Part shown: positions 14,701 through 52,059 of the stretch, in pieces
How the letters are laid out: every line of letters starts with the position of its first letter
Numbering within the stretch: position 1 is the stretch's first letter
Made by a program: the position numbers and the translations under genes
Notes under the pieces: model-generated
What the model was told of the DNA's origin: nothing
What the model saw: the letters and a program-made list of their open reading frames with translations, nothing else
Database searches by the model: none
NCBI GenBank assembly: GCA_964017065.1
Contig: OZ024786.1
Coordinates: 13,445,469 to 13,509,468, forward strand
DNA: 64,000 nucleotides
Source of the DNA: Haliclona indistincta
Lineage: Eukaryota > Porifera > Demospongiae > Haplosclerida > Chalinidae
Reading direction: 5' to 3'

Positions 14701-16633
14701 CATAAGAGAGCCTGGGTACAAGGCTAAGTATCACGGTACGTTCCTCATTCCAAGGTGAGTACCATGAAAAAAAAATTGCCAGCACTGCTTGAGAATTTTA
14801 CAGTCCCTATGTTTATCCATGGCCATATAAAACTTCCTTATAAGGAGTTTCTGCGATACAAGTATTTTGTGGAATGGCGCTATCTGAAGTTGTTCACTTC
14901 TGGAATAACAAGCTTCTGGAATGTTCACTTGGCCTAACCAAAATAATATTTACTAATATAATAAACACATGCACATTATACTGTAAACGTCATAATTTTG
15001 CGATGCTAATAATTATTTTGCAAATTAGCTCTTTGTTCAGTAAAAAATAGTCAGTTTTTGGCGTTTGCCCTGTAATAAAAGCAGAGTTTATAATAAGAAG
15101 AGTGTCGAACATAGCATACCTGCGTGCAAATCTGTGTATATAAAGTAACGTGACACCCACGACCACGTGAGAAATCGCCATAAAGGAATCCGTAATTATT
15201 TGTTACATAGCATTATGTCATCTGCTATGTTTGCAAGGGGGCGTAGTCAATAATCAGACGTCCTCAATAAGGCCGCGTTAGTCAAACATCGATCCGCACC
15301 ACCCATGGAGCAGCAGGATTCAGCATCAGTAGCTCATGTGCAGCTAACGTTACCGATTTTGTACAAGGTTATGCTACACTCAACACACTTCTTATTATAA
15401 AATCTTGATAAAAGTGATGGGTTAAATTGATAAAATTAATGTTGCAATTGAACAGCGCTCGCAAAAATTAAGCTACCGTGAACATTTCATTTTATTTTCT
15501 TTGAATGCTTGAGGCAGAAGAATTGAACTTCTGGTGCCTTTGGCTTATGCATAGGTAATTTTTGTGTGAACATGATTAGCTTCTTACCTCTTCCAGAGGA
15601 AAAAAAATCTTTCCACCTATTGTTACCTCCTCCACTCCCGATTTTTTGAATACTGCTGCATTCTTTCGAACTGATTTTTCCAACTCACACGAGTGATCGT
15701 CAAGAAGGACCCACGAGATGATGACCGATCCTGTCTTGGCGTGCATGCGTACTAAATACTGCTGACTATCCTCGAATCCCTCAAGTGCTAGATTCTCAAT
15801 ATCTTTAAGAGCACATTTCATCTTTTTGAGGATCTTGATTGTAACAAGCACTTTGCCTTTTTGTAACATTGGCTCCACCTTCTCAACAATAGCACGCTGG
15901 AATTGCGAGACTGTTGTACTTTTAAGAAACGATTCTTTCTCCTCTTCATATTTTTTGATAACTTTGTCCAGCACTTCTTTCTTAGATTCAAATATTTCCA
16001 GAAGACTGTAGAGTCGATACAGGTTGAATGGATCAATGTGATCACGACACAGCTGGTCCAACAGTTCGTCGATGTTTTTACAGTCGCTAAAGTCTCTGCT
16101 ACCACAGGCTCGATTGAGAAATGTTCTTGCTTCAGACAATTCTTCATCACATTCTTTAAGTATTGATCCAAACCTGCTTAACATAAGACAAAATGATGTC
16201 TCTAAATCACGAAGCTGACGGACAACATTAGCATCAGCGTGGACCTCTGTTTCAAGTTCGTCCTCCTCGTCTGTAAATAACAACAACAATCAAATGTTAA
16301 GAGACGCAACAGTACAGTAGCATCATACCTGTATTCTTTCCCAACATATATACTCTCTTCACTCTCGCAGCCAACACACCATAGTCATTTTGCTCCAGTG
16401 CTTGAACTACATCTTTCCACGAAGCATCTGGCTTCAATCGCAGCCAAAAATGGAACAGTTCGATTTTCCAGTTCTCCACTCCTCCATGAGGATCATCCAA
16501 CTTGATATTATTGAGCTTTCTTACAGGAACACCTAGCGACACACCAAACAGTATCCAATCAGTCACTTCCTTGAGCTCTTTTACTAACAACTCAACGGAC
16601 GGGACAGGAATTTCTGTAGACGATAGAGTATCA
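8759..16633 (-). CDS. Gene 1: death domain - adaptor - coiled coil - ZU5 - UPA-like - death domain protein (5' exon unresolved)
   Basis: Nine exons join in phase: 16633-16329, 16270-15588, 13993-13702, 12012-11908, 11855-11748, 10190-9649, 9540-9400, 9354-9106, 9040-8759, giving about 904 residues. In order: a death domain (ELKEVTDWILFGVSLG..WLRLKPDASWKDVVQAL); a helical region followed by a beta-rich segment (VLVTIKILKKMKCALKDIE..GSVIISWVL) of a kind I associate with sponge and cnidarian death-fold proteins; a six-helix, CARD-like exon; two coiled-coil exons; a ZU5 domain (GYGFKIIVPVGAL, YWISCSEVLLKEVAIYIQHC); a UPA-like region (LLQWKGEEG, ILGTTEEDCSFTIHH); and a C-terminal death domain (DVTDWYNFGINLG..WLKYKPDAAWEDVVSAL). 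No ATG lies in the first exon's frame; ATGTCAGACA|GTAAGT at 16675 does not join in phase, so the start is open. Probable cytoplasmic adaptor, by domain content. Its introns hold several transposons. Confidence 0.75.
10233..10530. mobile_element. Solo foldback element, family B (in gene 1 intron)
   Basis: Arms AAAATCAAAAGGATGTAGGG.. and ..CCCTACATCCTTTTGA fold back. The inner ends carry CCCTACATCAGTGGCT and its near complement. Compared with the longer copies at 28423, 37534, 41957 and 54628 it is diverged and lacks the adjoining composite body, so the foldback can move or persist on its own. It lies just upstream of the ZU5 exon. Confidence 0.8.
10553..11370. repeat. Repeat family C, interrupted copy
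   Basis: Two blocks, 10553-10692 and about 11262-11345, match a continuous block at 12104-12330 (TGCAATGAAAATTGAAAC..CAGATCCTTTGT, then ..CTGTAGCCAATGACAG..). The interruption contains the TIR element at 10707-11240. Both copies lie in one intron region of gene 1. Confidence 0.7.
10707..11240. mobile_element. Non-autonomous DNA transposon with TA target duplication
   Basis: Inverted ends TAGCCGGTTATTTTCG and CGAAAATAACCGGCTA are each flanked by TA (10705-10706, 11241-11242). It is 534 bp with no transposase. It lies within repeat family C, which dates it as the younger insertion. Confidence 0.75.
12104..12345. repeat. Repeat family C, continuous copy
   Basis: Uninterrupted counterpart of the 10553-11370 repeat, about 85% similar by eye. 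It is followed by a small hairpin (GACCCAGAAGCTGGGTC, 12329-12346). The rest of this intron (12350-13690) shows no exon or repeat I recognise. Confidence 0.65.
14069..14726. mobile_element. Mutator-like (MULE-type) non-autonomous element with 9-bp TSD
   Basis: Inverted ends TAGCCTCGTACCCAGGCTCT and AGAGCCTGGGTACAAGGCTA extend about 45 bp into the element (GGCGATTTTAATTA and complement). It is flanked by a perfect 9-bp duplication AGTATCACG (14060-14068 and 14727-14735). A 9-bp duplication is typical of Mutator-like transposons. It is 658 bp, has no transposase, and lies in a gene 1 intron. The rest of that intron up to 15580 shows no exon. Confidence 0.85.
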
Positions 16634-21281: not shown

Positions 21282-23910
21282 CTATGATGCTACGTTATAT
21301 TTTTCCTTTATGACTTTTGCAACACTGTTATGCTTCATAATAGTTAATGCTGACACTACATCTTTCCATGATGCTTCAGGAGTTGATTTTAGCCATTCAG
21401 CCAGCATACTATACTTCATTAACTCAACTCTTGCATTCTCTTGCTTTATGTTGTCCAGTGTAGTTGGTGAAGTACCGAGATATACTCCAAGCAGTTCCCA
21501 GTCAGAGACATATTGCAGCTCCATCATAAGCATATTCAATTTCTGCATTATAGATTGAAGTAAATATGCATGATTGTATGATTATTTCGTCTGACGCACG
21601 TAACTCACCATAACAGAAGGCATATTCATTACATCCTGTTTGATTTTCTGAACAACTTGACCCTTCTTTACTTGTCTTGGATTGTGGTATATGATGAAGG
21701 ATGTATCAGGTTTAGTAGTCCCCAAGACCTTCACTCGATATGCCTTCAATGGAGTCACCTCTGAGCCAGGCTCACCAGTCCATTGTAACAGAATAGTGCA
21801 CGAAGGAGCAAAAACTTCAACAGATGTATCATCTTCAGATTTGTCTAATTCATATCCATCAACTTCAGCTTTGTCAATCTGCAGCAGTATTAAGATAAGC
21901 TATAGCTAATGATTGTGTGTACATACCTCAAGTGGTGTTGAATGGGGAATTATTTCCCAGCCATCCACAATTGGAGGTGGATTTCCAGGTATTTCTAAAG
22001 TGATATGATCAATTTCAAATATGAAACGTTGACTGTCATGATCTTCTGTCCATTCTTCCTCTTTTATCTGCTTCTTATACTGTACAATAATTATTACAGA
22101 CATTCGTGCAATCCTCATTGTATGTTAGTCATACCTTGTTAACTTTAAAGGCAATATTAATTAAGACCACAAAACGAAAGCTCATGTTAACTGAGTTAGG
22201 AATTGGCTTATAAAACTTCAGTGCAACATAGTACAGCTTGGTATCATCTGGACCAGTTGCTCCAATAAATGATAATCTCTTACGCATGACAGTAGCGTAT
22301 TGTGTGTCAGCATTGAATATTCCGTCTCTCTCTACAAACTTGTATGGTGGATCTTGGGAACATTTAGCTATGACGAACTTGAATTTTGTAGTATCTTCTT
22401 CATTTGATATCACTGCACAGTGTTGAATATTGATAGCAACATCTTTTAAGAACAATTCACAGCATGATATCCAGTAGATTGCACTGATTAACTTTCTATT
22501 CTCTGAAAGACTAAATTTTCCTCTACTGATCGCCTTAACAGAAATACTAGCAGTCACTCCAGGAAGAAGGGCTCCAGCAGAAACATCGATGTGGAATCCA
22601 TATCCAGGCCACACCAGCTTCTGTGGTAATCTGTCACTGATCACATCAAACACGATCTCTCCACACACCTTAACACCTCTTAGCTCTAACAAGTCAAGTG
22701 TCAAAATCTAATAATAATGACAATTCTTGCTTACTTGGTGTTATATCTAAGTAGCTTGTTTGTATAGACCATTTTAGTCGCTGATCATTTTCCCGCGCAC
22801 GCCCGTACAACACCGGACATGACCGTGTCGACGCCACCATTTTGTCGGTATTGTGCTGCAGGCAAAACACAAGGTTTCGTCGTTTTGCGTGCTTAGCTAG
22901 GTACTTTGCACACACAAGCGAAAGTATATTGCTTATAATGAGTCACTAGATCTTGAAAACGCGCGTTTCAATCTCTCGAACGGCCAGCAAAGCGGGAAAT
23001 ATGGAACGAAACTACTGACATTTTGTTCGATTTTACTGGCACACTGTGTCTACGCGTAATCTACATCAGGGTAGCAAACAATACTGGATAGCCGCCTTGA
23101 TCGAACAGTCCAATCGATAATAGCTTGGCTGATACAGAACAGCAGCAAAACTGGACCGGTTTCTAGCAGTCAACTGCTTGTTAACGTCGCTTTCTTGACC
23201 GAGATTGTGGCAGTAATGTTCGTTTGTAAACTCTTAAGCATGCTTAAGCTTGCACAGTAACGGATCCAGGAAAACAAGATTGGGTGGGCCAATGTGCGGC
23301 GCGGAGCGCCACCGAAAAATTTAGCTAATTAATATTCATTAGAGGCGTAAATAATTGACTCTGACACGCTTCAAAGCGATAGTCGATGCGTACAGCTAGG
23401 AAGCTATACAGCACAGCGAGCGCGCTAGTCAGTAGTGAGAACTCTGCTCAGAACGGTAAGAGTTTTGCACTATAGTTAAAACTTTCAAAATTTTAGCTGG
23501 GCTAGTTTGGGTGGGCCAGGCCCTACCTGGCCCACCCCTGGATCCGCCACTGAGCTTGCAATGCAATGTTCTATCGCTTGCAAGTGGAAATTAGCCTGCC
23601 AAGCGCGCAAAGAAACGAATATCTTGTGATTTGCCAGCAGCACGATACCGACAATATGGCGGTCCAAAGATTCGCGTCTATTAGCGCCTAAAATGGTCTA
23701 TAGCAATGTGTCTCTTGGTTGAGTCAGATTGTGAAAGAGCTAATAATGTAACAAATAATTAGTTACTACATAGCTATGTAATGACAATTCAATTCTTGAC
23801 AATAATGACAATTCTTGACAATAATGACAATTCTTGCTTACTTGGTGCAATATCTAAGTAGCTTGTTTGTATAGCAATGTGTCTCTTGGTTGAGTCAGAT
23901 TGTGAAAGAG
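21282..23910 (-). CDS. Gene 2: ZU5 - UPA-like - death domain protein, 5'-truncated duplicate of gene 3
   Basis: Exons 23910-23842, 22676-22135, 22079-21927, 21878-21609 and 21542-21282 join in phase and match exons 9 to 13 of gene 3 in length, phase and sequence. They encode the short QTSYLD exon, ZU5 (VWPGYGFHIDVSAGALLPG, IYWISCCELFLKDVAINIQHC), UPA-like region (LLQWTGEPGSE, VKVLGTTKPDTSF) and death domain (YVSDWELLGVYLGTS..WLKSTPEASWKDVVSAL). Homology to gene 3 continues upstream only to about 24040, at the donor of the coiled-coil exon, then stops. No start codon or ankyrin-ROC part is present upstream, so this is either a truncated gene with a new 5' exon or a pseudogene whose module stays open. 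The intron after the first exon contains a second, transposon-split copy of that exon. Confidence 0.65.
22767..23698. mobile_element. Long-TIR DNA transposon inserted in an exon of gene 2, 4-bp TSD TATA
   Basis: Inverted ends GACCATTTTAGTCGCTGAT and ATTAGCGCCTAAAATGGTC continue as diverged long TIRs (CCACCATTTTGTCGGTATTG near 22848, complement near 23650). Flanked by TATA (22763-22766, 23699-23702). Comparison with the intact exon copy proves the empty site. It encodes no transposase and is itself interrupted by a hAT-type element. Confidence 0.85.
23255..23552. mobile_element. hAT-type MITE with 8-bp TSD, nested
   Basis: Ends CAGTAACGGATCCAGG and CCTGGATCCGCCACTG (complement CAGTGGCGGATCCAGG). 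A perfect 8-bp duplication AGCTTGCA flanks it (23247-23254, 23553-23560). CAGTGGCG-type ends with 8-bp duplication are typical of the hAT superfamily. It is 298 bp, without coding capacity, and contains GCTAATTAATATTCATTAGA, a motif also present near 39512 and 43207. Confidence 0.88.
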
Positions 23911-24064
23911 CTAATAATGTAACAAAAATTGCATGTTGTTACTGCGTAGCTATACTCATACATGAATAAAATTGAATAATTATGCATTAATATAATACAT
24001 GGTTATTATTGCGGCCATTACTGTGCATACCCTTCAGTTGTTTAGGGTATGCCCACTCCCAGTG

Positions 24065-24691: not shown

Positions 24692-24821
24692 ACTCCCAGT
24701 GTGGGCAGTCCCATTTGAACCTCTAGACACATGCCAATATTGCTCGGTATAGGACTCAATCATTTTCACATACCTTTGAATAGAATATCATATTCTCCCT
24801 CTGGCTTTACCATTGTGAAGC

Positions 24822-24823
<2 letters not shown>

Positions 24824-24877
<54 letters not shown>

Positions 24878-25148
24878 GGAGGGAGGGAGGGAGGGAGGGA
24901 GGNNNNNNNNNNNNNNNNNNNNNNNNNNNNNNNNNNNNNNNNNNNNNNNNNNNNNNNNNNNNNNNNNNNNNNNNNNNNNNNNNNNNNNNNNNNNNNNNNN
25001 NNNNNNNNNNNNNNNNNNNNNNNNNNNNNNNNNNNNNNNNNNNNNNNNNNNNNNNNNNNNNNNNNNNNNNNNNNNNNNNNNNNNNNNNNNNNNNNNNNNN
25101 NNGGGAGGGAGGGAGGGAGGGAGGGAGGGAGGGAGGGAGGGAGGGAGG

Positions 25149-25174
<26 letters not shown>
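24824..25174. repeat. (GA)n/(GGGA)n microsatellite with internal 200-N gap
   Basis: GAGA run, then GGGA units, then 200 N (24903-25102), then GGGA units and GAGA again. The gap was almost certainly left because the repeat could not be assembled. 25175-25690 shows nothing recognisable. Confidence 0.97.
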
Positions 25175-25179
<5 letters not shown>

Positions 25180-25698
25180 GGAACGCTTTCTCCAACAACC
25201 AGCTAACCTTTACTGACGCGGCTAAGTACTTGGGCCTAGTCCTACTCGTCTTCTAGTCTAGAGAGAAGATGACAGAAACGGCTAGTCGAGACGTGCAGCT
25301 AGCGAGACTGACACGTGACAATTTCCCGCGCGAGATTTAAATTTCAAACACATTTTTAGAGTATAGAGTGAGTCACTACTGTTTACAATAAACAGAAAAC
25401 AATAGATCAGTCATAAAGACGTAATTCTTGAAACTCAGGCTAAAGAGAAGAGAATTCAAAGTGTTTGAGTCGACGTATGAAATGACCAACTTGGCTACAG
25501 TTGGTTCTTAGTTATCTATATGTCAGTCATAGTCGCATGTTTGCAAGCTGCGGTGAAAAACATGAGTGTCAAATTGATCTAATTACTTTGACTGCATAAT
25601 GATTTCATTTATTTTTATGAAGATCGTTATTATAATATGTAGTTCAAAAACTATATTTCACGCAAGGTTTGATCATCAAACTATGGCGAGGGCTTGAG

Positions 25699-26621: not shown

Positions 26622-29600
26622 TCAACAATATTTCTGCTCGATGGTTTTAGCAACAGTGTTTTCATTCATATCTTTCAATGCTGATACAACATCTTTCCAC
26701 GATGCTTCAGGATTGATTTTCAGCCATCGATTCAACATACTGCTCTTCATGTTTGCAACATCACGGTTATTGTGTTCCACTTCATCTAGTATAGCTTTTG
26801 AAAGAGAAAGCAGAATTCCAAGCTGTCTCCATTCAGTAACATTTTGAAGTTCACATACAAGTGCTCTTATTGTCTAAAGGTAAGCATGATAATTAATGTA
26901 TAATAATTATTACATAGCTATACCAGTTTTTGAAGATGAGATGTATCCAATACTGCAGCTGATTGTTTGCTTGTTGCCTGCTCATCTTTAACTGCACCTG
27001 TACTGTATTGACCTGGATGGTAGGAGATAGTGAAGAAACAATCAGGCTCATCGGTCCCCAAGATCACTACGTCATGAAACAGTGACTTCAGTTCTGAGCC
27101 AGGTAGTCCAGTCCATTCCAAGTGAATATTGCAGCAAGGAGCTATTACTTTCATAAACAATGGTCTAGATGTGTTTTCCAATTTATCATCTTTCACTTGA
27201 TAATCATCAACTGAAGTTTTTTTAATCTATGTAAGTATACAAATCAACTTAATTTTACTATAAATGTACATAATAGACTCTTCATGCATGTATGATAAAA
27301 CTTTGATTTCATTATGCATGCACCAAACTGGTTTCAGTAACAGTGAAACGTGCTAGCTACTTATACCATGCATCCTTGACTAGTTTGATTTCATGCTTTG
27401 TACCATGGGAAGCCTTATTTTCAAAGGCACGACCAGTGGTATATCAGATATTCCACAGTAAATCATGATTTCCTGTGGTATGGACATATGACTACTGGGC
27501 AAAAAAGATCAATGAAATGATCTTCCTTCCAGAGAGAAAGATAGGAATGTCTGGAGTCAAAGTTGTGAGTACACCTCACCAGCTAGTAGACTATTAGGGA
27601 GGCACAGTAGTGCCTCCCTATGTAGGGTTGAACGAGAAAACAAGATGGCGGCTACATACAATGTATTAGCGTTCAAACGCTGATATTTCGCCTGGTGATG
27701 AATTTTAAACGTCCAAAGACACTTAGATCTGCTCTCTGGCGTTGCCCAGATCTGCTCTCTGGCGTTACAGTAGCAAGGAGAGTGCTCGAAATTGTTACTA
27801 AAGTGACGAACCTGGAAACGGTGAAAATCGACTTTCGTCATCTTCGTTTTCTTCTTCTTCTTCTTTCTTCAACTCGCCTAGCGCCTTTACGCGAGCAGTG
27901 ACGAGACCAAAACACCCACGAACAGTCGTGAAATTCTCCTGGCAGGTACCTTTTGAACTTTGTTTTTAGCGAAACGGCGATATAAATTCCGCAATTACTC
28001 GATCGTGATCCATCGTCAGCTAAGTGTTAGACGCCATTATTGTGATTGCGCAATACGCACGTGACCAAGCAGTGGTTAGCGCACGTGACCAAGCACAAGC
28101 TTGAGTATCGCCACGCCGTATGGATCACGGAGAACACATATTTGTCTGGAGTATTCGAAGAACGGTAGGATCACCATTCTGCGCTTGCCAGATAATTATA
28201 ACCGCCATACAGGTACAAACAAGTGTGGGCGGGGCTGGTATGCATGCATGCGTAGGCGAGCTGATAAGTACACTATTTTTAGCTACAAGTTTAAAATTGT
28301 TAATGATAAAGAAAAGCCATAAACAACAGGAAAACTAAACCAATGGAGGAAACAAAGACGGCTCTGTACAAGGATAATATTGAACTTCATTGAAAAAGAA
28401 AAAAGGAAACAAACAAGAAAATAAAAAAGATTTCTATCGAAATCAAGAGGATGTAGGGTTGTGAAATCTACCACTGGTCCACAATGTAAACTAACAAGGA
28501 ACAAGCATGCAATGGTAACACGATTGACTTGCTAACAGACCATAGATCCCTACATCAGTGGCAGTACATAAGATCAATAATTATTCAAGCTCAATGCATG
28601 TCAGGTGTCAGCAGTCAACAGCAACTAGCTGAACTAGCTTTAGTCAATCACAATTAACAGCCACTGATGTAGGGATCTATGGTCTGTTAGCAAGTCAATT
28701 GTGTTACCATTGCATGCTTGTTCCTTGTTAGTTTACATTGTGGACCAGTGGTAGATTTCACAACCCTACATCCTCATGATTTCGATAGAATTTTATTTTA
28801 TTTTCTTTACAGGGTGCGCTTACTTATCCTATAGAAACCAACGGACATCAGTGGGCATTGTGGTTGCCACTATGGTAAACCATGCCTACCCATGGTGTAT
28901 CATGAATACACCACGGGTAGGCATGCTATAACTTACGTAAATCATGATAAATTATATCGATACCTTAAGAGGTGATCGTGGAGCAATTTTCCAGTTGTCT
29001 ACTACCAATGGTGGATTTCTCCGTATTTCAAGAGTGATGCAATCTTCTTTAAATTTAATGATCTGGTAGTCATCATCCTCTGTCCACTGATCATTGATCA
29101 TTTGTTCCTTATACTGTAAAAATAATAATAATGCATGTATGCAGACATGCTTAATAATTACCTCATTAATTCTAACAAGTAGTTGAGTTAGAACCACAAA
29201 GCGAAGGCTCACACGGTCTAAATTAGTGTTTGGCTTGTAGAACTTAAGAGCAACATAGTACATTTCTGTATCAATTGATGCAATTACTCCAACCATACAG
29301 AATCTTTTACGCAAGATAGTAGCATATTGTGTATGGGTGCTGAACACACCATCTTCTTCAACTACTTCATATGGTGGATTTTGGGAGCTTCTGGCAATAA
29401 TAAACCTAAAATTGCTATCATTAGAAAAGATTGCACAGTGCTGAATGTTGAGTGACACATCTTTTATGAACACTTCACTGCATGATATCCAGTAAACTGC
29501 ACTGATCAGCATGCTATTTTCAGGAAGACTGAACTTTCCTCTACTGATTGCCTTAACAAAAATACTAGCAATCACTCCTGGAGGAAGGGCTCCAGCAGGA

Positions 29601-32600
29601 ATCTCTAGAAAGAATCCATAGCCAGGCCATACCAGCTTTTGTGGTAATCTGTCACTGATCACATCAAACACAATCTCTCCACACACCTCAACACCTCTTA
29701 GCTCTAACAAGTCAAGTGTCAAAATCTAATACAAATGACAATTCTTGCTTACTTGGTGCACTATCTAAGTAGCTTGTTTGTGTAGCAATGTGTCTCTTGG
29801 TTGAGTCAGATTGTGAAAGAGCTAATAATGTAACAAATAATTAGTTACTGCATAGCTATACTCATACATGAATAGTTATGCATGCATTTATGCATGGTTA
29901 TTATTGCGGCCATTAATTTGCATAATATTATGTGCGAGAATTTCTGTGCTTACCCTTCAGTTGGTTAGTCTGTAATTCCTCTTCTAATAATGATATTTGC
30001 TGTCGAGCAGCTTCCAGTTCTGTCTGCAGAGCATCTGAACTTTCCCTTAGCTTCACCATTTCCTCTTTCAGCTTGTCACTGTCATTCAATTCTGAGTTAG
30101 TAGACCGTGCACCGCTAACATATGCACCTATATCAATTAAAGTGGCATAGCATTAGTATTTTCTCTAACCCAACATACTTTCTGACATAGTAGGATCATC
30201 TGTTAAGGAAAGTTGTTGTTCAGAATTGACGTTTGTTTCTATCAACAAAATTGGTCTATCTTTCACCTCATCAGCAGTTTCTACACTTGTCATTTCCTCA
30301 TGATCATTGCGTTCTCTTATTGGTTGCATATCTAAAATAATTATTTTATTATGGTAGTATAATTATTATGCTGTTGTCTTACACTTTATTTCTTCCATCA
30401 CTACAGCCATCTCTTGTCTTAATGTGTGATCACTTGGCTCAGTTATATCACTTGCACTTTCCAGTAGTGAATTTGAATGTGATTTTCTATTTAGATCTGC
30501 ACTAGATAATACTGCATCACCTGCATCATCACCTACATCAACTGCATCTGTGCAATCTCCTGGAGAAGGAAATAATATTGACTTAAAATATTAGTCACTA
30601 GCTGCTCACCTGCAAATATGTCTTCATGATATGGTATCAAATGGTGTGGTACAGCAGATGATGGTATTTCAGTGATTGGAACAGACCTGTCTAAAGTTGT
30701 ATCAGTTGACTATTAGTATAGAGCAGTATGTAATTAAAATTAATTGACGAAGCAATAAAATTGATATTACTTACTCTTGATGTAAAAACAAGGTCTTGCT
30801 TTGTGTGGCTAAGATCTTCTTTGGACTTCTTTAACCAAGCAGTTAGCATCTTTTTTTTGCAATCTTCAACAGATTCTCCATGGGTTTCCTTTATATTTTT
30901 AAGTGTCTCACGATTCACTTCTAATATCTCTCCGAGATTATACCAATCATAAACAGGTTCAAGAGCTGCCATTAATGAAGGTATGTGACTTTCATCTACA
31001 GTAGTGAGATTATTGCACATACATGTGACATTATTCTGATTATCATGATATGGTACTGAAAATCTCACCTAGTTCATCAGACAGCAGAACATCAAATAAT
31101 ATTTTTTCACGTACACCTTTAAGCAGATAATAAAAATGCACATCAGTGCATCGTAGCAAATTTGACATGCATAACTATACCTGTTTCAATGGCTGTATTA
31201 ACTTCAAGATTTGCTTTTTCCTACAGACAAAATAAAGACAATAATATTGTTGGAAAGTTTATTGTCATCAACTTACAAAAGGGTTTCTGCCTGTGAATAT
31301 GCTCATTTCATCAATGAACTGCTTCAGATGAAAGCGATTTTTTGTCCCTATCTGTTTCTGATTTAACTGACAAATTGTGTTGATCTCATCAAGGTAAGAT
31401 TGAGAGACATGGTCATCAAGTTTACTGTTATCCATTAGTTCACACAAAGAGGAGGAGCTCAATTGATAGTATGGTTCAAATTCCAGTACATCTCTGGTAG
31501 TAAATTCACCACTGATTCTATCTGTTGAACTGGAAATATACGGCTTGTGGAGAAGCATTGATTTTGCTACATTCTTGATTGGAAGCAAATCATTGTCTAA
31601 TGGGCATACAATGTCAGCTGGCCAGTTTCTGAGTAGAGTGGGAGAGATCAGGCATTCAGCTATGTCTTCATGAGGGCAAAGCTGTTGCTGTAGGTCCAGT
31701 ACTAGTCTAATCACTGCACTACGATGCTTGCAATAATCCACTGGTCTGGTTTCTGTTTCATGAGACATCAGTACTACCAAACGTCGGTTGTAATCAATGA
31801 GTTCAATCATAGTTTGGATACCTGCTTCATTTTCCCAAAATATTCCACTCATCCAAACAAAGCATCTTGAAGTTGGTACATTTGAATGAGGTACGTCAGT
31901 GTGATTCTCACTGGGGCTTGAAAATGTGCAAAGTAAGCGAAGAAGAAGAACATGAAGAAATCTGTTTGTGAAGAACTGATATTCATCTGAACTACATATA
32001 GACCAGCCAAAATTAAAACTGCCTTTATCAGATAGTATGCTTGTTGGCTTTTTTACATCTGACATCAATGAAGGAAAGTATAGCAAAGTATCATGATCAC
32101 TCGGCACAATAAGATGTGATGGAACTTCAATGCTTTCGAGATTCGTTGTCATCTCAGACAAGTTAACACAATGGCAGAGTTCAAGAGATTGTAGAAAGTC
32201 AACAAGCATCTCTTGATTGTGCTGTGGAAATAAATGTTTAAGAGAAGACGAGTGTACAATTCCAGTGTCACTGGCAATTTGACTATGGTCTGAGAAGTCT
32301 TTTGGAGCAAAAATAGTTCCATTGATTTGTTCAAGTAATAGACTAGGCTGTGTGATTATCCAACTCTTCTCTAATAATGTCTGATTTTTTAGAAAAATGA
32401 TAATGCCTTTGTCATTAAGTGATTTAAGAAGTTCAGTGACAAACCATAAATGTGCTGGAATGTAAGTATCTTCATCATCTTTAATTAAAGAAAGGAGGTT
32501 TTGAAGTGAGAAGACAGTCTTTCGTTTTGATTTTAAGAACGCAAGCAATATGTGACAGTAGTAGCTGATTGGCGGTGATCTATCGAGTATAGCTCGATGA

Positions 32601-35600
32601 CTCTTGTCCAATAAAGATACAAACTCACGAGTACTAGCAGAATCAATCTTGCGGCAATCCATCATAACAACTCCTTTAAACTCATGCCTCTTTACTCTTC
32701 TAAGCACTAAGTTGTTAATAAGAGTTAATTTGCTTTGAAGTTGCTCCTCATTAAGCTGGTCAGCATGACTGCCAACAATTAATAAACATGATTTAATACC
32801 TATTTTACAGGTAGTACTGTCAATAAAATTGATCCAATAGTGAAATTGCTGCATCATCTCAAGTTCGGTGTTCCTAAGGTCTATAACATTAACAAATGTG
32901 GCAGGTGAATGCTGCATCACTGTCTCTATGACAGCAGAGTGACTGGAATGGTATGATGAAAGTCCTGCTAAATCACAACAAAGACATCGGCTTGCTGAAG
33001 TTGATCCTTCCAAATATACGTATGAAATTCCAGATGAAATTCCAGATGCCAAGTTGTAAACAAGAGTTTTTCCTATTTCCCAGCTATTAATATCAGAGTA
33101 GACAATTCCAGATGTGGAGGTAGTTATTTTTTCAACCTGGGATATGAATCTTAAGAAATTCAAGTATGTGTATGTAGTAGCTCTTTTAGTGATAACTTTA
33201 GTTAAAGTGGTTTTGCCTGCATTACTATTACCAACAAAGAAAATTTTGCTGTAGATATGGATTGGTAAAACTTTTGATGCAGTAATAAAGCGTTGAAGCA
33301 GATTTATTAATATAAAAGACTTCTTACCTCGCCATTTTGTCATATCTGAGCATGTAGAAGAAAACTTGTTTCTAGCATTTATGTCAACTCTTCCATTGTG
33401 TAACAACCACCTTACAATATGTAAATGACCACCATAACTAGCCAAGTGTAGCAATGTATTACCGTATTGATCGACAATCAAAGGATCACACTTTTGTTCA
33501 TATTTGTCAGGAGATTTTGGATCGCAACCAAGTTCAGTGATTAGATATTGGATAATGTTCAAGTGACCATTTTCAGCAGCATAATGTAAAGGAGTTGAAC
33601 CGTTCTTATTTCTTTGATTGGAATCACAGCTTAGTTCAGTTGTGAGATACTTTGTAATATTCAAGTGACCATTAAGACAAGCAATGTGTAATGGAAGATC
33701 ACCATTGTTGTTAGAAATTGTTGGATCACAACCTAGTTCAGTGATAAGGTATTGGATGATGTCCATGTGACCATTTTCAGATGCACAGTAAAGAGGTGTA
33801 GATCCGTTTTTGGTTTGACTGTTTGGGTCACATTTCTGTTCACTGATGAAATATTTTACAGTGTTCAAATGACCTTGAAGACTAGCAATGTGTAATGGTT
33901 GATAGCCATCGTTGTTTGAAATTGTTGGATCACAACCTAGTTCAGTGATCAGGTATTGGATGATGTCCATGTGACCTTTTGCTGAAGCACAGTAGAGAGG
34001 TGTAAATCCATAGTTAGTTCGACTGTTTGGGTCACATTTCTGTTCACTGATGAAATCTTTGACTGTATCTGAATGACCATTAAGACTAGCAATGTGTAAT
34101 GGTAGATAGCCATCGTTGTTTGATATTGTTGGATCACAACCTACTTCAGTGATAAGGTATTGGATGATGTCCATTTGACCATTTTGAGAAGCACAGTAAA
34201 GAGGTGTAGATCCGTTTTTGGTTTGACTGTTTGGGTCACATTTTTGTTCACTGATGAAATATTTTACAGTGTTCAAATGACCTTGAAGACTAGCAATGTG
34301 TAATGGTTGATAGCCATCGTTGTTTGAAATTGTTGGATCACAACCTAGTTCAGTGATCAGGTATTGGATGATGTCCATGTGACCATTTTGAGAAGCACAG
34401 TAAAGAGGTGTAGATCCGTTTTTGGTTTGACTGTTTGGGTCACATTTCTGTTCACTGATGAAATATTTTACAGTGTTCAAATGACCTTGAAGACTAGCAA
34501 TGTGTAATGGTTGATAGCCATCGTTGTTTGAAATTGTTGGATCACAACCTAGTTCAGTGATCAGGTATTGGATGATGTCCATGTGACCTTTTGCTGAAGC
34601 ACAGTAGAGAGGTGTAAATCCATAGTTAGTTCGACTGTTTGGGTCACATTTCTGTTCACTGATGAAATCTTTGACTGTATCTGAATGACCATTAAGACTA
34701 GCAATGTGTAATGGTAGATAGCCATCGTTGTTTGATATTGTTGGATCACAACCTACTTCAGTGATAAGGTATTGGATGATGTCCATTTGACCATTTTGAG
34801 AAGCACAGTAAAGAGGTGTAGATCCGTTTTTGGTTTGACTGTTTGGGTCACATTTTTGTTCACTGATGAAATATTTTACAGTGTTCAAATGACCTTGAAG
34901 ACTAGCAATGTGTAATGGTTGATAGCCATCGTTGTTTGAAATTGTTGGATCACAACCTAGTTCAGTGATCAGGTATTGGATGATGTCCATGTGACCATTT
35001 TGAGAAGCACAGTAAAGAGGTGTAGATCCGTTTTTGGTTTGACTGTTTGGGTCACATTTCTGTTCACTGATGAAATATTTTACAGTGTTCAAATGACCTT
35101 GAAGACTAGCAATGTGTAATGGTTGATAGCCATCGTTGTTTGAAATTGTTGGATCACAACCTAGTTCAGTGATCAGGTATTGGATGATGTCCATGTGACC
35201 TTTTGCTGAAGCACAGTAGAGAGGTGTAAATCCATAGTTAGTTCGACTGTTTGGGTCACATTTCTGTTCACTGATGAAATCTTTGACTGTATCTGAATGA
35301 CCATTAAGACTAGCAATGTGTAATGGTAGATAGCCATCATTGTTTGAAATTGTTGGATCACAACCTAGCTCTGTGATAAGGTATTGGATGATGTCCATGT
35401 GACCATTTTGAGAAGCACAGTAAAGAGGTGTAGATCCATTTTTGGTTCGACTGTTTGGGTCACATTTCTGTTCACTGATGAAATATTTTACGGTGTTCAA
35501 ATGACCGTTAAGACTAGCAATGTGTAATGGTAGATAGCCATCGTTGTTTGAAATTGTTGGATCACAACCTAGTTCAGTGATAAGGTATTGGATGATGTCC

Positions 35601-37333
35601 ATGTGACCTTTTGCTAAAGCACAGTAGAGAGGTGTAAATCCATAGTTAGTTCGACTTTTTGGGTCACATTTCTGTTCACTGATGAAATATTTGACTGTAT
35701 CTGAATGACCATTAAGACTAGCAATGTGTAATGGTAGATAGCCATCGTTGTTTGAAATTGTTGGATCACAACCTAGCTCTGTGATAAGGTATTGGATGAT
35801 GTCCATGTGACCATTTTGAGAAGCACAGTAAAGAGGTGTAGATCCATTTTTGGTTCGACTGTTTGGGTCACATTTCTGTTCACTGATGAAATATTTGACC
35901 ACATTCAAATGACCATTAAGACTAGCAATGTGTAATGGAAGAAGACCATTGTTGTTTGAAATTGTTGGAACACAACCTAGTTCAGTGATAAGGTATTGGA
36001 TGATGTGCATGTGACCATTTTGAGAAGCACAGTGAAGAGGTGTAGATCCACAGTTAGTTCGACTGTTTGGGTCACATTTCTGTTCATTGATAAAATATTT
36101 GACAGTATTCAAATGACCATTAAGACTAGCAATGTGTATTGGAAGACAGCCGTCATTGTTTGAAATTGTTGGATCACAACCTAGCTCTGTGATAATGTAT
36201 TGGATGATGTCCATGTGACCATTTTGAGAAGCACAGTAAAGAGGTGTAAATCCATAGTTAGTTCGACTGTTTGGGTCACATTTCTGTTCACTGATGAGGT
36301 ATTTGACCGTATTCAAATGACCATTAAGACTAGCAATGTGTAATGGAAGAAGACCATTGTTGTTTGAAATTGTTGGAACACAACCTAGTTCAGTGATAAG
36401 ATATTTGATGATGTCTATGTGACCATTTCGAGAAGCATAGTAAAGTGGTGTAGATCCATATTTGTTTCGACTATTTGGGTCACATTTCTGTTCACTAATA
36501 AAATATTTTGTAGCATTTACTTGACCTTTCCTGCAAGCATCATGTAATGGAAGATCACCATAGTTGTCTAAAGGTTTTGGATCACAAGCTAGTTCGGTGA
36601 TTAGGTACTGGATAATGTTTATGTGACCGCCTTGAGAAGCACAATGTAGAGGTGTGGATCCATGTTGACCACGACTATTATGATTGCAATTTTTCTCTGA
36701 AATAAAGTATTTTAAAACATCGAAGTGTCCATTGTAACAAGCTATGTGTAGTGGGAGATCACCATCGTTGTTTGAAGAGTTTGGATCACAATTTTGTTCA
36801 GCAATAAGATACTGGATTATGTTCATGTGACCATTTTGTAAAGCACAATGTAGAGGTGTCCATCCATTGCTAGTTTGAACATTTGGGTTACAGTTATGTT
36901 CTGTTATGAAATATTTAGCAGTGTCTAAGTTACCATGACGACAAGCAATATGTAACGGGAGACTTCTTCTTGTGGTTTTAGCATTGGGATCACAGCCTAA
37001 TGTACTAATTAAGTAATTTATCATTTCTAAACTATTTTCTGATGAAGCAGCTGCAGCATAATGCAATGGAGTGAGACCTTCACTGTCTCTGACATCATAC
37101 ATTGAGATATGTTGCTGTATAGTCTTGCTGATGTCTAGCCAGCCATGATAAGCAGCAAGATGGAGTAGTGTCACACCTTTGTTTGGTGGTAAGATTTTTT
37201 CATTGAATTCAAACTCAGTAGTAACATCACCAGGTTGCTGTAGTTGTGGTAGTAGTTGTACTGCCTGGTCATGGTTGCCTTGCTTGAATGCTGTCACACA
37301 CTGCTGCTCTAGATCCAGCTGAGACACAGCCAT
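26622..37333 (-). CDS. Gene 3: giant ankyrin - ROC-COR - death domain - coiled coil - ZU5 - UPA-like - death domain protein
   Basis: Thirteen exons, all with GT..AG and matching phase: 37333-31277, 31220-31181, 31116-31069, 30995-30775, 30709-30610, 30559-30383, 30331-30179, 30127-29954, 29821-29753, 29694-29162, 29113-28964, 27226-26924, 26873-26622. Total 8277 nt, 2758 residues. About 37 ankyrin repeats (residues ~50-1320); ROC GTPase with P-loop GNSNAGKTT (~1370), DLAG (~1457) and SHAD in place of NKxD; COR region to ~2000; death domain (2049-2122, YDWYNLGEILEV..MLTAWLKK); acidic linker; coiled coil (2266-2323); ZU5 (2347-2524, VWPGYGFFLEIPAGAL); UPA-like (2525-2675); death domain (2676-2758). 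The ATG at 37333 follows an in-frame TAA 12 bases upstream. ANK-ROC-COR-DD matches DAPK1 without kinase; ZU5-UPA-DD matches PIDD1, UNC5 and ankyrins. Likely a cytoplasmic death-fold scaffold with a nucleotide switch. The intron 28963-27227 holds a composite repeat. Confidence 0.85.
27595..28800 (+). mobile_element. Composite repeat, copy A (in a gene 3 intron)
   Basis: Order: terminal palindrome TAGGGAGGCAC..GTGCCTCCCTA (27595-27620), TGTAGGGTTG, AAGATGGCGGC (27642-27652), CTT-rich tract, CTAGCGCC, CACGTGACC repeats (28060-28100), then a long foldback (28423-28796) with arms of about 150 bp meeting at CCCTACATCAGTGGC. No coding capacity. It accounts for most of the longest intron of gene 3. 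Confidence 0.85.
33790..35337 (-). repeat. 612-bp higher-order repeat within the ankyrin exon
   Basis: Blocks of six ankyrin repeats (204 codons, 612 bp) recur in tandem about 2.5 times and are nearly or fully identical at the nucleotide level. For example, the text from 33831 and from 34443 is the same for over 150 bases. Flanking ankyrin repeats (35340-37000 and 33400-33780) are clearly more diverged. This is recent tandem duplication or gene conversion inside the coding exon, with frame kept. Confidence 0.92.
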
Positions 37334-37529: not shown

Positions 37530-38463
37530 AAGAAAATTAAAAAGATTTCTATCGAAATCAGAAGGATGTAGGGTTGACCACTGGACCACAATGTAAACTA
37601 ACAAGGAACAAGCATGGAATGGTAACACGATTGACTTGCTAACAGACCATAGATCCCTACATCAGTGGCTGCTGTGGTTGATTATAGCTAGTTCAGCTAG
37701 TTGCTGTTGACTGACACCTGACTTGCATTCAGCTTGTGACAAAATATTGATCTTATGTACAGCCACTGATGTAGGGATCTATGGTCTGTTAGCAAGTCAA
37801 TCGTGTTACCATTCCATGCTTGTTCTTTGTTAGTTTACATTGTGGACCAGTGGTAGATTTCACAACCCTACATCCTTCTGATTTCGATAGAAATCTTTTT
37901 AATTTTCTTGTTTGTGTCCTTTTTTTTTTTTCAGTGAAGTGCAGTTCAATATCATGCACGTACTGAGCCGTCTTTGTTTCCACCATTGGTTTAGTTTATC
38001 TGTTGTTGATGGCTTTTCTTTATTATTAACAATTTTAAACTTGTATCTGAAAATAATTGTTATGCTGTACATATCAGCTCGCCTACGCATGCATGCATGC
38101 AGTGCATACAAGCCCCGCCCGCACTTCTTTGTAGAGTGGTTATTATCTGGCAAGCGCAGAAAGGTGATCCTATTCGAGCTTATCGTTCTTCGAAGACTCC
38201 AGACATTTCTCCGTGTCGACGCAGCGATTAGTGCTTGGTCATGTGCGCTAACCACTGCTTGGTCATGTGCGTATTGCGCAATCACAATAATGGCGACTAA
38301 CACTTAGCTGACAATGGATCACGGTTGAGAACTCTCGGAATTTATATCGCCGTTTCGCTAAAAACAAAGTTCAAAAGGCACCTGCCAGGAGAATTTCACG
38401 ACTGTTCGTGAGTGTTTTGGTCTCGGCACCGCTCGCGTAAAGGCACTAGGCGTGCTGAAGAAA

Positions 38464-42581: not shown

Positions 42582-45500
42582 ATGCCGTCGTGTTGCCCGT
42601 GTAATGGCAACGGAGTCTGCATAAAGTGTGCCTGTGCGCTAACGGGAAGGCGATGTACTAACTGTGCGCCACAGAAAAGATAATGTTGCTGCAACCAAGC
42701 TCTACCCGGCGACCCAAAGTCCCGTATCTCCGATCTTACTAAAAACACCGAGTCCACATCTACACATCCAGCCTCTGTCCCCGAACTCGACAACGCTAAC
42801 CCTATTAAACCAAACTCAGCCGTCACCGATCCACCGTCCAGCCGCTACGTGAACTCCGGCGACAACAACAGCAAGCCAACGCCCAAACCTCAACTAGCCA
42901 CCCAAAACAACAAACATTCTATCGGCAAACAATCTCAACACTCGACCAAAATCCCTCCACTCCCAGCACACGAGTCTATCATGGCGCCAAACTACACATG
43001 CATGGGACAGCTGCAAGGAGTTGATTTTTTACAAGTCGTAGAAGCAGCATACACTGAAGCTGTTCACTGGCGCCAAAACCTCTTCAAAATACCGCTTGGA
43101 TGAGTTGGAAAAAATTTTGTGTATGAACTAGCTCGCCTTCCCAAGAGCTATGCTGAGGCTTCAGCTCTAGAACCTGTGTCTCTTAAGGTGACGGTTACCA
43201 GTCTGAGCTAATTAATATTCACAGAATGTAAACGTCTGTAGCAGCAAAAGGAAGCATGCTATAACGTTGTGCAGACCATCATTCGATGCGCCAAAGTCAG
43301 CTGTTCTCCAAAAGCAGCTGTTCAAAGTCAGCTGTTCTCCAAAGTCAGCTGTTCTCCAGGACCTCCTCAAGGGACGTACGATGAGATATTTGCTAGAAAA
43401 TTATCCGTTCACTAGTTATGCAGTGAAATGTCCGCGAGGACGCCATAAAATCACTGCGAGTTTGGACTAATGATAGAGGGTAAAACCCATCAGGCTCTTC
43501 GACTTCTCACCAAAGAGGGACGAGGAAGCGTGCTCTAAGTCAATCAACCTCTAGACAAATCCAACCCCACAGCTGGATCAGTGTTAGACACCCTAAGATC
43601 AAAGCACTCTCCTTCACAGCCAATCCATCCTGATGCCCTCTTATAACACCCGACCAAACGGCAGCACCAAAGTCACATCCAGTTATCTTTGAGGAAATAA
43701 CTGGTCTTCCATCCAGAGAGCAGCCTTGAGATGCAATGGTTCAGCCGGCCCATCATGTCTAGAAGCTGTTGCCTGGAGACATATCTGCAATTCCTTTAAG
43801 ACCGCCTCTTCTGACCTCTGCAACGCATTGGCACTGCTAGCACGACGTCTATGCACAGAGTTTGTAGCACCTCAAGGGTTATCTGCTTTCACTGCTTGCA
43901 GGCTAATTGCACTTGACAAGTGTCCAGGTGTGAGACCAATTGGTGTTGCTGAAGTGGTACGAAGGATAATAGGCTAAACTATCTTGTCAGTGATTGGCAG
44001 TGATATCCAACAAGCAGCTGAATCTATTCTCAACTGTGCGCAGGACAAGAAGCAGGGAGTGAGGCTGCCATTCACGCAATACGAAAGGCCTACAACAAGG
44101 ACGATGCTGAAGGGGTCCTCCAGATAGACGCCTCAATTGCCTTCAACCAGCTAAACCGTCGAGTTGCTCTACACAATATACAAGAACTCTGTCCCCCCTT
44201 TGCAACTATCCTCATCAACACTTACAGAGACAATGCTCAGCTGTTCGTTGATGGCGAAACACTTTTCTCTCGCGAAGGAACAACCCAAGGAGACCCTCTA
44301 GCCATGCCTTTCTATGCGCTTGCCACCATTCCACTGAATAGTGCTTGCAAAAGTGACTTATCGAGTGAAGTATGGTTTGCCGATGATGCTACAGGCTGTG
44401 GGAACCTAACCTCTTTGCAAAGCTGGTGGGACAAGCTAAACACCTATGATCCCCAATTTGGCTACCACCCAAATGGCTGCAAGACCTGGCTAATAACCAA
44501 ACAGGCCCTAGAACAGACTGCAACTAACGTCTTCGCCAACACCAATGTACATGTGACGACTGAGGCCAGGAAACATCTTGGAGCACCTCTGGGCAGTGAG
44601 TCCTACATAAACTCTAAAGTTTCGGAGGAAGTAAAAGAATGGACAGAAGAGTTAGACACCCTCTCAGAAATCGTGCGTATACATCCCCATGTCGCATACT
44701 GTGCCTATATTCATGGTCTTAAGAGCAAATGGCTTTACTTGACACGCACTACACCCGACATCTGCGATCTGCTAGAGCCAATCGAAACCACCCTGAGGCA
44801 GAGGTTCATACCTTCTCTTACCAGCAAGCCATCACCTGGTGATCAGATGAGAGAGGTGCTGTCACTTCCTGCCAGACTTGGAGGCCTCGCTATCACAAAC
44901 CCTAAAGCAACTGCTAAAGAGGAACATCAGGCTTCACTACAGCTGACAGCTTCTTTAGTATCAAGCATTGATGAGCACAGCAACCCATTCACTTCAAACC
45001 TCGCAAGACTACAAGCAAAGTCCCACCTCCGGCAGACAAGACGTGCCAAAGAAAAACAGCGCGCAAACACCATCACTGAACAGCTCCCTGAAGTCCTAAA
45101 GCATGCAGTACTGCTAGCCAGCGAAAAAGGAGCATCCAGTTGGCCGACAGCTCTACCACTACACCAACATGGCTTTTCCCTCCACAAGAGTACGTGATTT
45201 CAGAGATGCAATTTGTCTCAGGTACGGCTGGACCCCCGACAGACTACCATCTAACTGCGTATGTGGCAAACAGTTTACTTCCGACCATGCACTCAGCTGC
45301 CCCACTGGAGGTCTCTCCACCAAGCGTCACAATGAAGTTCGTGACCTACTGGCTACTCTAATGACTAAGGTCTGCTATGATGTGGCTATTGAACCGGTTC
45401 TGCAACCCCTCACCAGTGAAACTTTCCAAAAAAAGGAGCACCACCACTGACGACAACGCTCGCCTAGACATCAGAGCAAAGAGTTTCTGGAGCAACAGTG

Positions 45501-47300: not shown

Positions 47301-49796
47301 TCAATGTTTGACAAACGGTCCAAAATCTCTTAGTTTTCGTACTCTAGTAGACCTTCGAACTGGAGCTGGAGGAAGTGCAGGTAAGATATTTGGAACAAAC
47401 TCTTCACCGGAATCCGTATCATCACGTGAGTCCTCTTCAGAGTTTCTATTCGTGTCTTCTGAATCGCTTGGATCAGTATCTTCACATGATTCGAAGTCAT
47501 CGGATGACGATGATGATGCTCCTGATGAAGAGGTATCGTGCTCTGACTCTTCCTCTGAGTGGTGATTGAATGGAAATATAACTGTATCTGGTACTTCTTC
47601 TGCTGGAGCTGGAGCAGCAGGAGTAGATCTTTCTTTGAATGGCTTAAGTCTGTCAAAATGTACGACAAGGCGTCGTCGAGGAGGTTCGATGCTTGTGATT
47701 CTGTAATGGGAATCACTCAAGACCTTGACAATCTTAAATGGACCTCTCCATGGACGGTGAAATTTATGTGCTTGTCCCCGTGGTACAGCAGGATGATGTA
47801 ACCAAACAAGATCATCCAGTTTAAAAGGATTGCCATATGCCCTCTGATCATATAAATCTTTTTGCCGGTGTTGTTGTGCCCGAGTATGCTCACGAGTATG
47901 ATGATATGCTTTCTCTAACCTCTCTCTCAACCTGAGTGCATACTGATTAGTGTTGGGAGAAGTATCAGTCTCTGGCAATCCAAACATGAGATCCACTGGC
48001 AAACGTAACTCTCGTCCAAACATCAGACTGTAGGGCGAGGCTCCAGTTGTTTCATGTTGACTCGATCGATATGCCATCATTAGCATGGGGAGCTTAACAT
48101 CCCAGTGAGTCTCATCTTCCACTGCTGCGAGGCTTAGCATTGTCAACAGAGTCCTGTTGAATCGCTCGATCATGCCATCAGATTGGGGATGATAAGGTGT
48201 AGTCCTAGTTTTTTTTATCCCCAAGAGCTCACAGGTTTGCTTGAGTAAACAAGACTCGAAATTACGGCCTTGATCTGTATGGAGATATTGAGGTGAACCA
48301 AAACGACACACAAATTGGTTAACAAAAATATGAGCAACAGTTTGAGCCTCCATATTTGGCATGGGGAAAGCCTCTGTCCATTTGGTAAAATAATCACCAA
48401 TGACCAATATGTATTTATTACCAGCCTGTGTCATAGGTAAAGGTCCCAAGATATCCATAGCTACTCGTTGCAGAGGTACCCCTACTTGCTCTATTTGCAT
48501 TTGTGCTCGTGGTTTCTTGGAAGGACTCTTTCTGGAGATACACAATGGACAACAACGGCACCAATCTTCGACATCTCGTCGCTGACCAGTCCAATAAAAT
48601 CTCTGTCGGACTTTTTCCAAAGTCTTGGTCACTCCAAGATGACCCCCAGTGGTTGAGTCATGTAGCTCCTCCAAAACAACAGGAACAAGAGTTGCCGGAA
48701 GGACCAATTGAAGTCTCTTGCATGCTCCTCCATGTGGAACATCCTCCCACTGACGATAAAGTAAGTCGTCTCTGAGGACAAGTTGTTGTCTTTGCGACCA
48801 AAGGGTTTGAAGACGATGGCTAACATGTCTTGGAAACTGAGAAGGGAGACTATCAGTTTTCAACCAAGTGATCATCTGTGACAGATCGGGATCAGCCTGC
48901 TGTTGTTGCAATAGATCTACTGTCGGAAACCAATTACTTGGTACAATCATTGCCACCGCAGGCTGATCTTGAAACAAGGAGTCACCTTCACCGCATTGAG
49001 AGCAAGGTCTTCGGGATAAAGCATCTGCATTTCCATGTTTTTGCCCAGCACGATGGCTGACAGTAAAATCAAATCTTGAGAGTAGCTCTAACCATCGTGC
49101 CACTTGACCCTCAGGCTCTTTAAATGACTGTAACCACTTGAGAGCATGATGATCTGTACGAGCAAGAAAAGAGCGACCAAGAAGATAACACTGAAAATAT
49201 TGAGCACCCCAGACTAATGCCAGCATTTCTCTTCTGGTTGCGCAGTATCGTCGCTCAGATTTTGTAAGCCGCCGACTTGCATATGCCACAGGTCTCTCTA
49301 TCCCGTTATCGCACTGAGATAGTACTGCACCCAATCCTTCACCGCTAGCGTCACAATCCAAGATAAAATTTTGATTAAAATCAGGAAAGGCTAGTACAGG
49401 TGATGAGGTAAGTTTGTCCCTTAAATCTTGAAATGCTGTTTCACATTTTTCTGTCCACAACCATTCTTTATTCTTCTCTGTGAGGGTATATAGAGGTGCA
49501 GCAATCATGGCAAAATTTTTAACAAACCTCCTATAGTACGAGGCAAAACCGAGGAACTGTCGAAGTTCTTTCGTATTGCAAGGTGTCGGCCATGTTGTGA
49601 CAGTCAGGGTCTTCTCTGGGTCTGTCTCCACTCCACGATCACTGACGACGTGGCCAAGGTATTTGACACTTGTTCGAAGCAACTTGCATTTACTCGGCTT
49701 CAACTTCAGACCTGCATCTCGAAGTCGTTGAAAAACCTCTGCAAGCCGCAAAAAATGGTCTTCCACTGTTCTGCTGAAGATGATTATATCATCCAA
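47301..49796 (-). CDS. Ty3/gypsy pol, 3' part: end of RT, RNase H, integrase
   Basis: The frame opens inside the RT catalytic motif (LDDIIIF) and continues through the RT thumb, RNase H (FILDCDASGEGLGAVLSQ, RTDHHALKWL), the integrase zinc-binding HHCC region (HLGVTKTLEKVRQRFYW..CRCCPLC), and the integrase core with MDILGPLP, TDQGRNFE and the glutamate in SDGMIERFNR. It then runs through a GPY-like region into an acidic serine-rich tail (EEESEHDTSSSG..). No chromodomain seen. It overlaps the upstream frame by 13 bases in another phase. Residues normally found between FKVMP and the catalytic motif are missing, so the RT palm is broken at this junction. Confidence 0.85.
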   Translation of the reverse strand: MDDIIIFSRTVEDHFLRLAEVFQRLRDAGLKLKPSKCKLLRTSVKYLGHVVSDRGVETDPEKTLTVTTWPTPCNTKELRQFLGFASYYRRFVKNFAMIAAPLYTLTEKNKEWLWTEKCETAFQDLRDKLTSSPVLAFPDFNQNFILDCDASGEGLGAVLSQCDNGIERPVAYASRRLTKSERRYCATRREMLALVWGAQYFQCYLLGRSFLARTDHHALKWLQSFKEPEGQVARWLELLSRFDFTVSHRAGQKHGNADALSRRPCSQCGEGDSLFQDQPAVAMIVPSNWFPTVDLLQQQQADPDLSQMITWLKTDSLPSQFPRHVSHRLQTLWSQRQQLVLRDDLLYRQWEDVPHGGACKRLQLVLPATLVPVVLEELHDSTTGGHLGVTKTLEKVRQRFYWTGQRRDVEDWCRCCPLCISRKSPSKKPRAQMQIEQVGVPLQRVAMDILGPLPMTQAGNKYILVIGDYFTKWTEAFPMPNMEAQTVAHIFVNQFVCRFGSPQYLHTDQGRNFESCLLKQTCELLGIKKTRTTPYHPQSDGMIERFNRTLLTMLSLAAVEDETHWDVKLPMLMMAYRSSQHETTGASPYSLMFGRELRLPVDLMFGLPETDTSPNTNQYALRLRERLEKAYHHTREHTRAQQHRQKDLYDQRAYGNPFKLDDLVWLHHPAVPRGQAHKFHRPWRGPFKIVKVLSDSHYRITSIEPPRRRLVVHFDRLKPFKERSTPAAPAPAEEVPDTVIFPFNHHSEEESEHDTSSSGASSSSSDDFESCEDTDPSDSEDTNRNSEEDSRDDTDSGEEFVPNILPALPPAPVRRSTRVRKLRDFGPFVKH

Positions 49797-51915: not shown

Positions 51916-51924
51916 TAGTGAATC

Positions 51925-51940
51925 CCACTTCTGACACCAG
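51925..51940 (-). other. Primer-binding-site region
   Basis: In element sense the LTR is followed at once by C and then TGGTGTCAGAAGTGGG. TGG complements the CCA end of a tRNA; which tRNA cannot be told by eye. Confidence 0.6.
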
Positions 51941-52059
51941 TGTAGCGTGCAACAAAAATAGCTCTGTTCTTATTTTACATACATGCACTCTTTATAGTGA
52001 TACAAGACAGGAAGTGAATAGTTAGTCTCTGAGTTAGTGCTACTTTATTGTTCGTCACA
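51941..52059 (-). repeat. 5' LTR of the Ty3/gypsy element (119 bp)
   Basis: Identical to 47141-47259. It contains TATAAAG-like and AATAAAG-like motifs in element sense (CACTATAAAGAGTGC; ACAATAAAGTAGC), candidates for promoter and polyadenylation signals. Confidence 0.95.

Follow-up and report, generated by a model that had tools for sequence, protein, structure and literature searches.

The window analysed here, a 64,000-nucleotide stretch of the sponge Haliclona indistincta (contig OZ024786.1, positions 13,445,469 to 13,509,468), carries on its minus strand a predicted gene (37333-26622) that joins an ankyrin-repeat (ANK) array, a ROC-COR GTPase module and a death domain (DD1) to a coiled coil, a ZU5 domain, a putative UPA and a second death domain (DD2). 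Re-splicing reproduced the start ATG at 37333 and the stop ending at 26622 given by a preliminary description of this DNA, resolved twelve GT-AG introns as that description had, and gave 13 exons with a coding sequence of 8286 nt that is divisible by three and free of internal stops. The product is a single frame of 2761 residues, three more than the 2758 first announced. Introns measure 48-132 nt, except for one of 1737 nt. A splice-chain search that was told nothing but where the COR donor lies and where ZU5 starts recovered the identical nine introns, with eight exons of 40, 48, 221, 100, 177, 153, 174 and 69 nt. The ankyrin repeats, ROC and COR all lie within exon 1, in one open frame.

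Pfam Ank matched 36 stretches of the exon-1 open reading frame (ORF; E 2.4e-282), and the array is similar to itself at 204, 408 and 612 bases. No kinase match (Pfam) precedes the repeats in the exon-1 frame, which opens at its ATG with ankyrin-type sequence. ROC and COR fell below their Pfam thresholds (Roc 18.6 bits for a cut-off of 27, COR-A 17.7 for 35.3) and a PDB sequence search with ROC-COR returned nothing significant, but both are clear in the predicted structure (AlphaFold model), whose PDB structure matches are LRRK1/2 and prokaryotic Roco proteins; COR adjoins ROC directly, as in Roco proteins. The nucleotide-binding motifs of the P-loop and G4 are intact. G3 reads DLAGL, at a site where the 35 aligned sequences (the gene and the 34, out of 83 database relatives, included in the structure alignment) have Q 22 times and H 11 times. 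Among paralogs, the P-loop reads GNSSAGKIS in L038, which lacks the usual S/T after GK, and GNSGAGKTI in L037, so that nucleotide binding may be absent from some of the ROC-COR paralogs. DD1 passed the Pfam Death cut-off of 22.6 bits in the exon ORF (23.7) and missed it in a longer piece (21.2).

The tail half begins with a coiled coil judged by eye in exon 8. Its ZU5 domain scored 20.1-22.1 bits with Pfam, straddling the cut-off of 21, and a single ZU5 stretch was seen there rather than the tandem pair of the ankyrin family. The same Pfam model matched 24 of the 25 aligned ZU5 exons (the gene and 24 paralogs), and FIIND matched two. Neither the ZU5-UPA-DD tail nor the ZU5 alignment had a significant match among PDB sequences. 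In the model of the relative P0087, 14 of the first 15 structure matches of the ZU5 part were ankyrin, NLRP1, CARD8, ZO-1 or UNC5b, the remaining one being a GAIN domain. Since this ZU5-UPA model is poor (pLDDT 44.5, and below 50 in the UPA-position part), the UPA, placed after ZU5 in exons 11-12 by its position, remains putative. The C-terminal death domain proposed earlier is clear (Pfam Death 37.9 bits, E 2e-9).

A putative cleavage site at the ZU5 end is conserved: S, C or T occupies it in all 25 own-genome ZU5 exons, with a preceding F in 24, and xF(S/C) occurs in 63 of 68 database ORFs. The triplet is RFC in this gene, four paralogs and five database ORFs; other paralogs have RFS, QFS, SFS, HFS or others. 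It was matched to F296/S297 of CARD8 by sequence position and shared fold, with a putative residue register. According to the accessible part of PMC3210808, the ZU5-like domain of CARD8 and NLRP1 cuts itself between F and S, the F and the second S being required and the residue before F hardly; Ser, Thr or Cys are, as a general statement, possible in such reactions.

That both halves belong together is best seen in relatives. We compared 25 ZU5-exon loci other than this gene, matched by its tail and taken with 1.5-kb flanks. COR lies upstream on the same strand in seven of them (L008, L009, L010, L014, L016 and L017 on C4; L024 on C6) and in no other orientation beside any of the 25. All seven keep the donor at the end of COR, and it alone was recovered in L014; in the six others, four small exons link COR to ZU5 in a spliced open frame, with length differences in multiples of three and a first intron of 46-63 nt. 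When the COR-to-ZU5 interior of five paralogs was swapped for window segments (140, 144, 140, 141 and 141; 706 in total), 93 segments gave any open chain, and the best scored 19.2 versus 22.5-27.0 for the paralogs. For these five paralogs a chance open frame was rejected, as none of the 706 reached their scores. Ankyrin repeats precede ROC-COR in the two of the seven that were read further (L037 and L038). Neither of these showed a DD1 between COR and the linker, nor the linker exons 5-7a. In L062, one exon joins an ankyrin repeat, with the frame kept, to the last part of this gene's exon 4 (KQDLVFT) and ends at the identical donor, with matches to the linker, ZU5, UPA position and DD downstream. 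ZU5 can be reached in L062 by an open splice chain, but this chain departs from the homology-expected exon 6, and the full frame of L062 is not claimed. The conserved COR-to-ZU5 frames and the L062 join therefore indicate that front and tail form a single transcription unit both in relatives that have ROC-COR and in one that lacks it, and favour the one fused gene predicted in the preliminary description.

The gene looks like one member of a large same-genome family. Its modules (an ankyrin front, ROC-COR and DD as optional parts, and a ZU5-UPA-DD tail) were shuffled at exon borders that are conserved, or close to such borders. The tail of the gene gave at least 112 matches in the genome (101 of 1070 candidates were scored), 95 of them covering the ZU5 exon and 17 later exons only; the number of fusion genes is likewise a lower bound. 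Since the Pfam ZU5 model finds 6 places at E 0.001 versus about 95 ZU5 exons with the gene's tail, such families are probably under-annotated; no COR match lies beside those six places, which are outside the 25-locus set. Some paralogs have ROC-COR without DD1 and some have neither. L062 has counterparts of exons 5 and 6, and part of exon 6 is seen again at C4:13661032. L039 (C4:14369495-14377400) holds a DD1-linker-UPA-DD2 set without ZU5 or ROC-COR, then a second linker-ZU5-UPA-DD2 set. Database protein searches returned 83 ROC-COR ORFs of 7987 candidates, 69 ZU5 of 1203 and 3 UPA of 3 (the window's own ORF is counted in the last two sets). These are bare ORFs and therefore unable to show a fusion, and neither the linker nor ZU5 had a match among the 83 ROC-COR ORFs. 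Equal contig sizes give no more than a hint that elsewhere ROC-COR ORFs may share contigs with ZU5 ORFs (70823, 142111, 640145, 68782) and with UPA ORFs (70823, 148808).

Divergence within the gene is mosaic. Against five paralogs, synonymous divergence (dS) is 1.0-1.6 over the last 200 codons of COR and 0.13-0.39 over the shared linker, while COR among these paralogs themselves shows 0.21-0.35. For ZU5, a dS of 0.13-0.16 against L008-L010 contrasts with 0.71-0.76 for L016 and L017; for the first 160 codons, at the ankyrin start, it is 0.12 against L038 and 0.078 against L062. Since the COR value is far above those of linker and front, the central block has another history than the ends, which either a cassette swap or a conversion of the ends would explain. 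An ancestor of the ankyrin and DAPK families, which the preliminary description had considered possible, is rejected: the flanks of COR are young (dS to nearest paralogs 0.08-0.4) and some paralogs lack DD1, or both ROC-COR and DD1, which argues for a lineage-specific shuffle.

Table. Features of the ankyrin-ROC-COR-ZU5 gene (positions in the window)
Feature	Position	Strand	Basis
Exon 1, first part: ankyrin-repeat array (residues 1-1340), 204-base period	33314..37333	-	Pfam Ank, self-similarity
Exon 1: ROC GTPase domain; P-loop GNSNAGKTT, G3 DLAGL, G4 GSHAD	32579..33262	-	AlphaFold model, PDB matches, motifs
Exon 1: COR domain, phase-0 donor at end	31277..32566	-	Same AlphaFold model; donor position kept in 7 paralogs
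Exons 2-4: death domain 1	31220-31181, 31116-31069, 30995-30775	-	Pfam Death at 30987-30814
Exons 5-7: linker	30709-30610, 30559-30383, 30331-30179	-	Splice model; exons 5, 6 recur in L062
Exons 8-9: coiled coil (by eye) and linker	30127-29954, 29821-29753	-	Exons conserved in six paralogs
Exon 10: ZU5 domain	29162..29703	-	Pfam ZU5 22.1 bits; fold of relative P0087
Candidate self-cleavage triplet RFC	29297..29305	-	Paralogs have RFS/QFS/SFS/HFS at the aligned place
Exon 11: UPA position, first part	28964..29113	-	Position only
Intron 11: inverted-repeat element	28415..28807		151-nt arms, 96% complementary
Exon 12: UPA position, second part	26924..27226	-	Position only
Exon 13: death domain 2 and stop	26622..26873	-	Pfam Death 37.9 bits, E 2e-9

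Two further family members lie downstream on the same strand, one at 21297-23917 with linker pieces and ZU5, UPA-position and DD matches, the other at 7989-10197 with ZU5, UPA position, DD and a further partial DD. At 15576-16599 (minus strand), a weak death domain, at 16.8 bits below the cut-off of 22.6, is followed by a 237-residue ORF without Pfam match, perhaps a gene of the DD-TRADD-N type. Elsewhere, nine death-domain matches stand in a row on one strand over 3.6 kb (G000:C8:9576347-9579962, plus strand), as a tandem death-domain gene or array. The inverted repeat of intron 11, with 91 nt between its arms, is probably a small transposable element, and a stretch resembling it by eye is found just upstream of the gene (~37540-37600). 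Long ORFs at 44022-45197 (plus), 47301-51991 (minus) and 59809-63564 (plus) resemble, by eye, retroelement gag-pol pieces. A GA/TC-rich simple repeat at ~24800-25200 surrounds a run translating to X, possibly an assembly gap.

On balance, we lean slightly towards a single gene with the order ANK array-ROC-COR-DD-coiled coil-ZU5-(UPA)-DD, drawn from a cassette-recombining family and working as a gated death-fold sensor. The ankyrin array would bind a partner or an invader-derived cue, and ROC-COR would act as a nucleotide-dependent switch keeping the chain closed. ZU5, which may cut itself at F/(S,C) like its counterparts in PIDD, NLRP1 and CARD8, would restrain the UPA-DD tail until ankyrin engagement and a nucleotide change in ROC-COR release or expose it, and the freed UPA and death domains could then nucleate a death-fold assembly. 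A narrower and doubtful, if conceivable, version is a Roco-gated counterpart of NLRP1/PIDD, where ankyrin repeats and ROC-COR would replace the NACHT/LRR front of a self-cleaving ZU5-UPA-DD receptor, with a Cys nucleophile in some copies and ROC-COR swapped in and out between genes.

Several points weigh against the gated sensor. The single-gene model is predicted from DNA alone, the immune or cell-death role is one that we infer, and the UPA named in the preliminary description had no match in sequence searches of the gene (Pfam and PDB). GTP hydrolysis may be weak or absent given a DLAGL in G3 where aligned sequences mostly have Q or H, and the RFC triplet may likewise mean weak or absent self-cleavage. 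No COR was found within the 1.5-kb flank of 18 of the 25 other ZU5 loci. Shorter or truncated isoforms are possible because AATAAA occurs three times on the way from COR to ZU5, once each in intron 1, exon 6 and intron 6; five of the seven paralogs have none within 700 nt of the COR end. These motifs, the different degrees of divergence of COR and tail, and the L039 matches, with no ROC-COR seen within 1.7 kb upstream of its DD1-linker-UPA-DD set, would also suit two adjacent head-to-tail genes (ANK-ROC-COR-DD and coiled coil-ZU5-UPA-DD) wrongly joined by the splice model. We hold this highly improbable in view of the COR-to-ZU5 frames kept in six paralogs, the in-frame L062 join and a first intron too short to leave space for two gene ends.

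A decaying or decoy copy, with inactive GTPase and self-cleavage site and a protein that serves as a scaffold or is a dying duplicate, could account for DLAGL in place of DLAGQ/H, RFC in place of S/HFS and a linker dN/dS (nonsynonymous to synonymous divergence) of 0.43-0.59. However, the P-loop and GSHAD are intact, Cys is in general usable as a nucleophile in such reactions (accessible part of PMC3210808), RFC is common to several copies, COR dN/dS is 0.22-0.32 and all 2761 codons are open; we regard decay as rather unlikely. Less likely still is an ankyrin-like membrane-skeleton adaptor, in which ANK and ZU5-UPA-DD would tether membrane proteins to spectrin, ROC-COR being a regulatory insert. 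The ankyrin front and ZU5-(UPA)-DD tail recall ankyrins (ANK-ZU5-ZU5-UPA-DD); unlike them, the gene has one ZU5, an inserted ROC-COR-DD1 and a large recent family.

The fusion was unfamiliar to the author of the preliminary description, and we recognised no account of ANK-ROC-COR with ZU5-UPA-DD in a full-text literature search, whose reach excluded most subscription papers and preprints. PMC8195603 and PMC9573974 contain the words ZU5, Roc, COR, ankyrin and Death, but their accessible parts deal with other architectures. The TRADD-N/death-domain families of Amphimedon have likewise expanded within their lineage, in many architectures that include death-like domains, ankyrin repeats and, in one TRADD-N clade, UPA-ZU5 fusions; a ROC-COR cassette is not mentioned for them in the part of the source available (PMC8195603), and the pieces of our gene scanned with Pfam, at limited sensitivity, gave no TRADD-N match. 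Brown-algal ROCO proteins, an expanded family with exon shuffling and proposed as immune receptors, have an LRR front, with neither ZU5 nor a death domain named in the accessible text (PMC11378527). NACHT-Zu5 and NACHT-Ank genes are named in early animals (PMC12909245, in part).

DAPK1 (kinase-ANK-ROC-COR-DD) shares the order ANK-ROC-COR-DD, whereas our gene lacks the kinase, has a long ankyrin array and a ZU5-(UPA)-DD tail, and its ROC-COR matches LRRK1/2 and prokaryotic Roco structures. From LRRK2, a Roco GTPase mutated in Parkinson's disease, and other Roco proteins it differs by the missing kinase, the ZU5-DD tail and DLAGL in G3. As in PIDD1, NLRP1 and CARD8, a ZU5 fold precedes a death-fold domain and a candidate F-S/C/T triplet stands at the putatively matching place; unlike these, the gene is fronted by ankyrin repeats and ROC-COR instead of LRR or NACHT, and has a Cys, with UPA and cleavage putative. 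Should the gated-sensor model hold, a Roco GTPase switch would share one chain with the kind of self-cleaving ZU5-UPA-death-fold device that PIDD and the NLRP1/CARD8 inflammasomes use, and the natural genes that carry or lack the ROC-COR cassette would offer a ready comparison of what the GTPase contributes.
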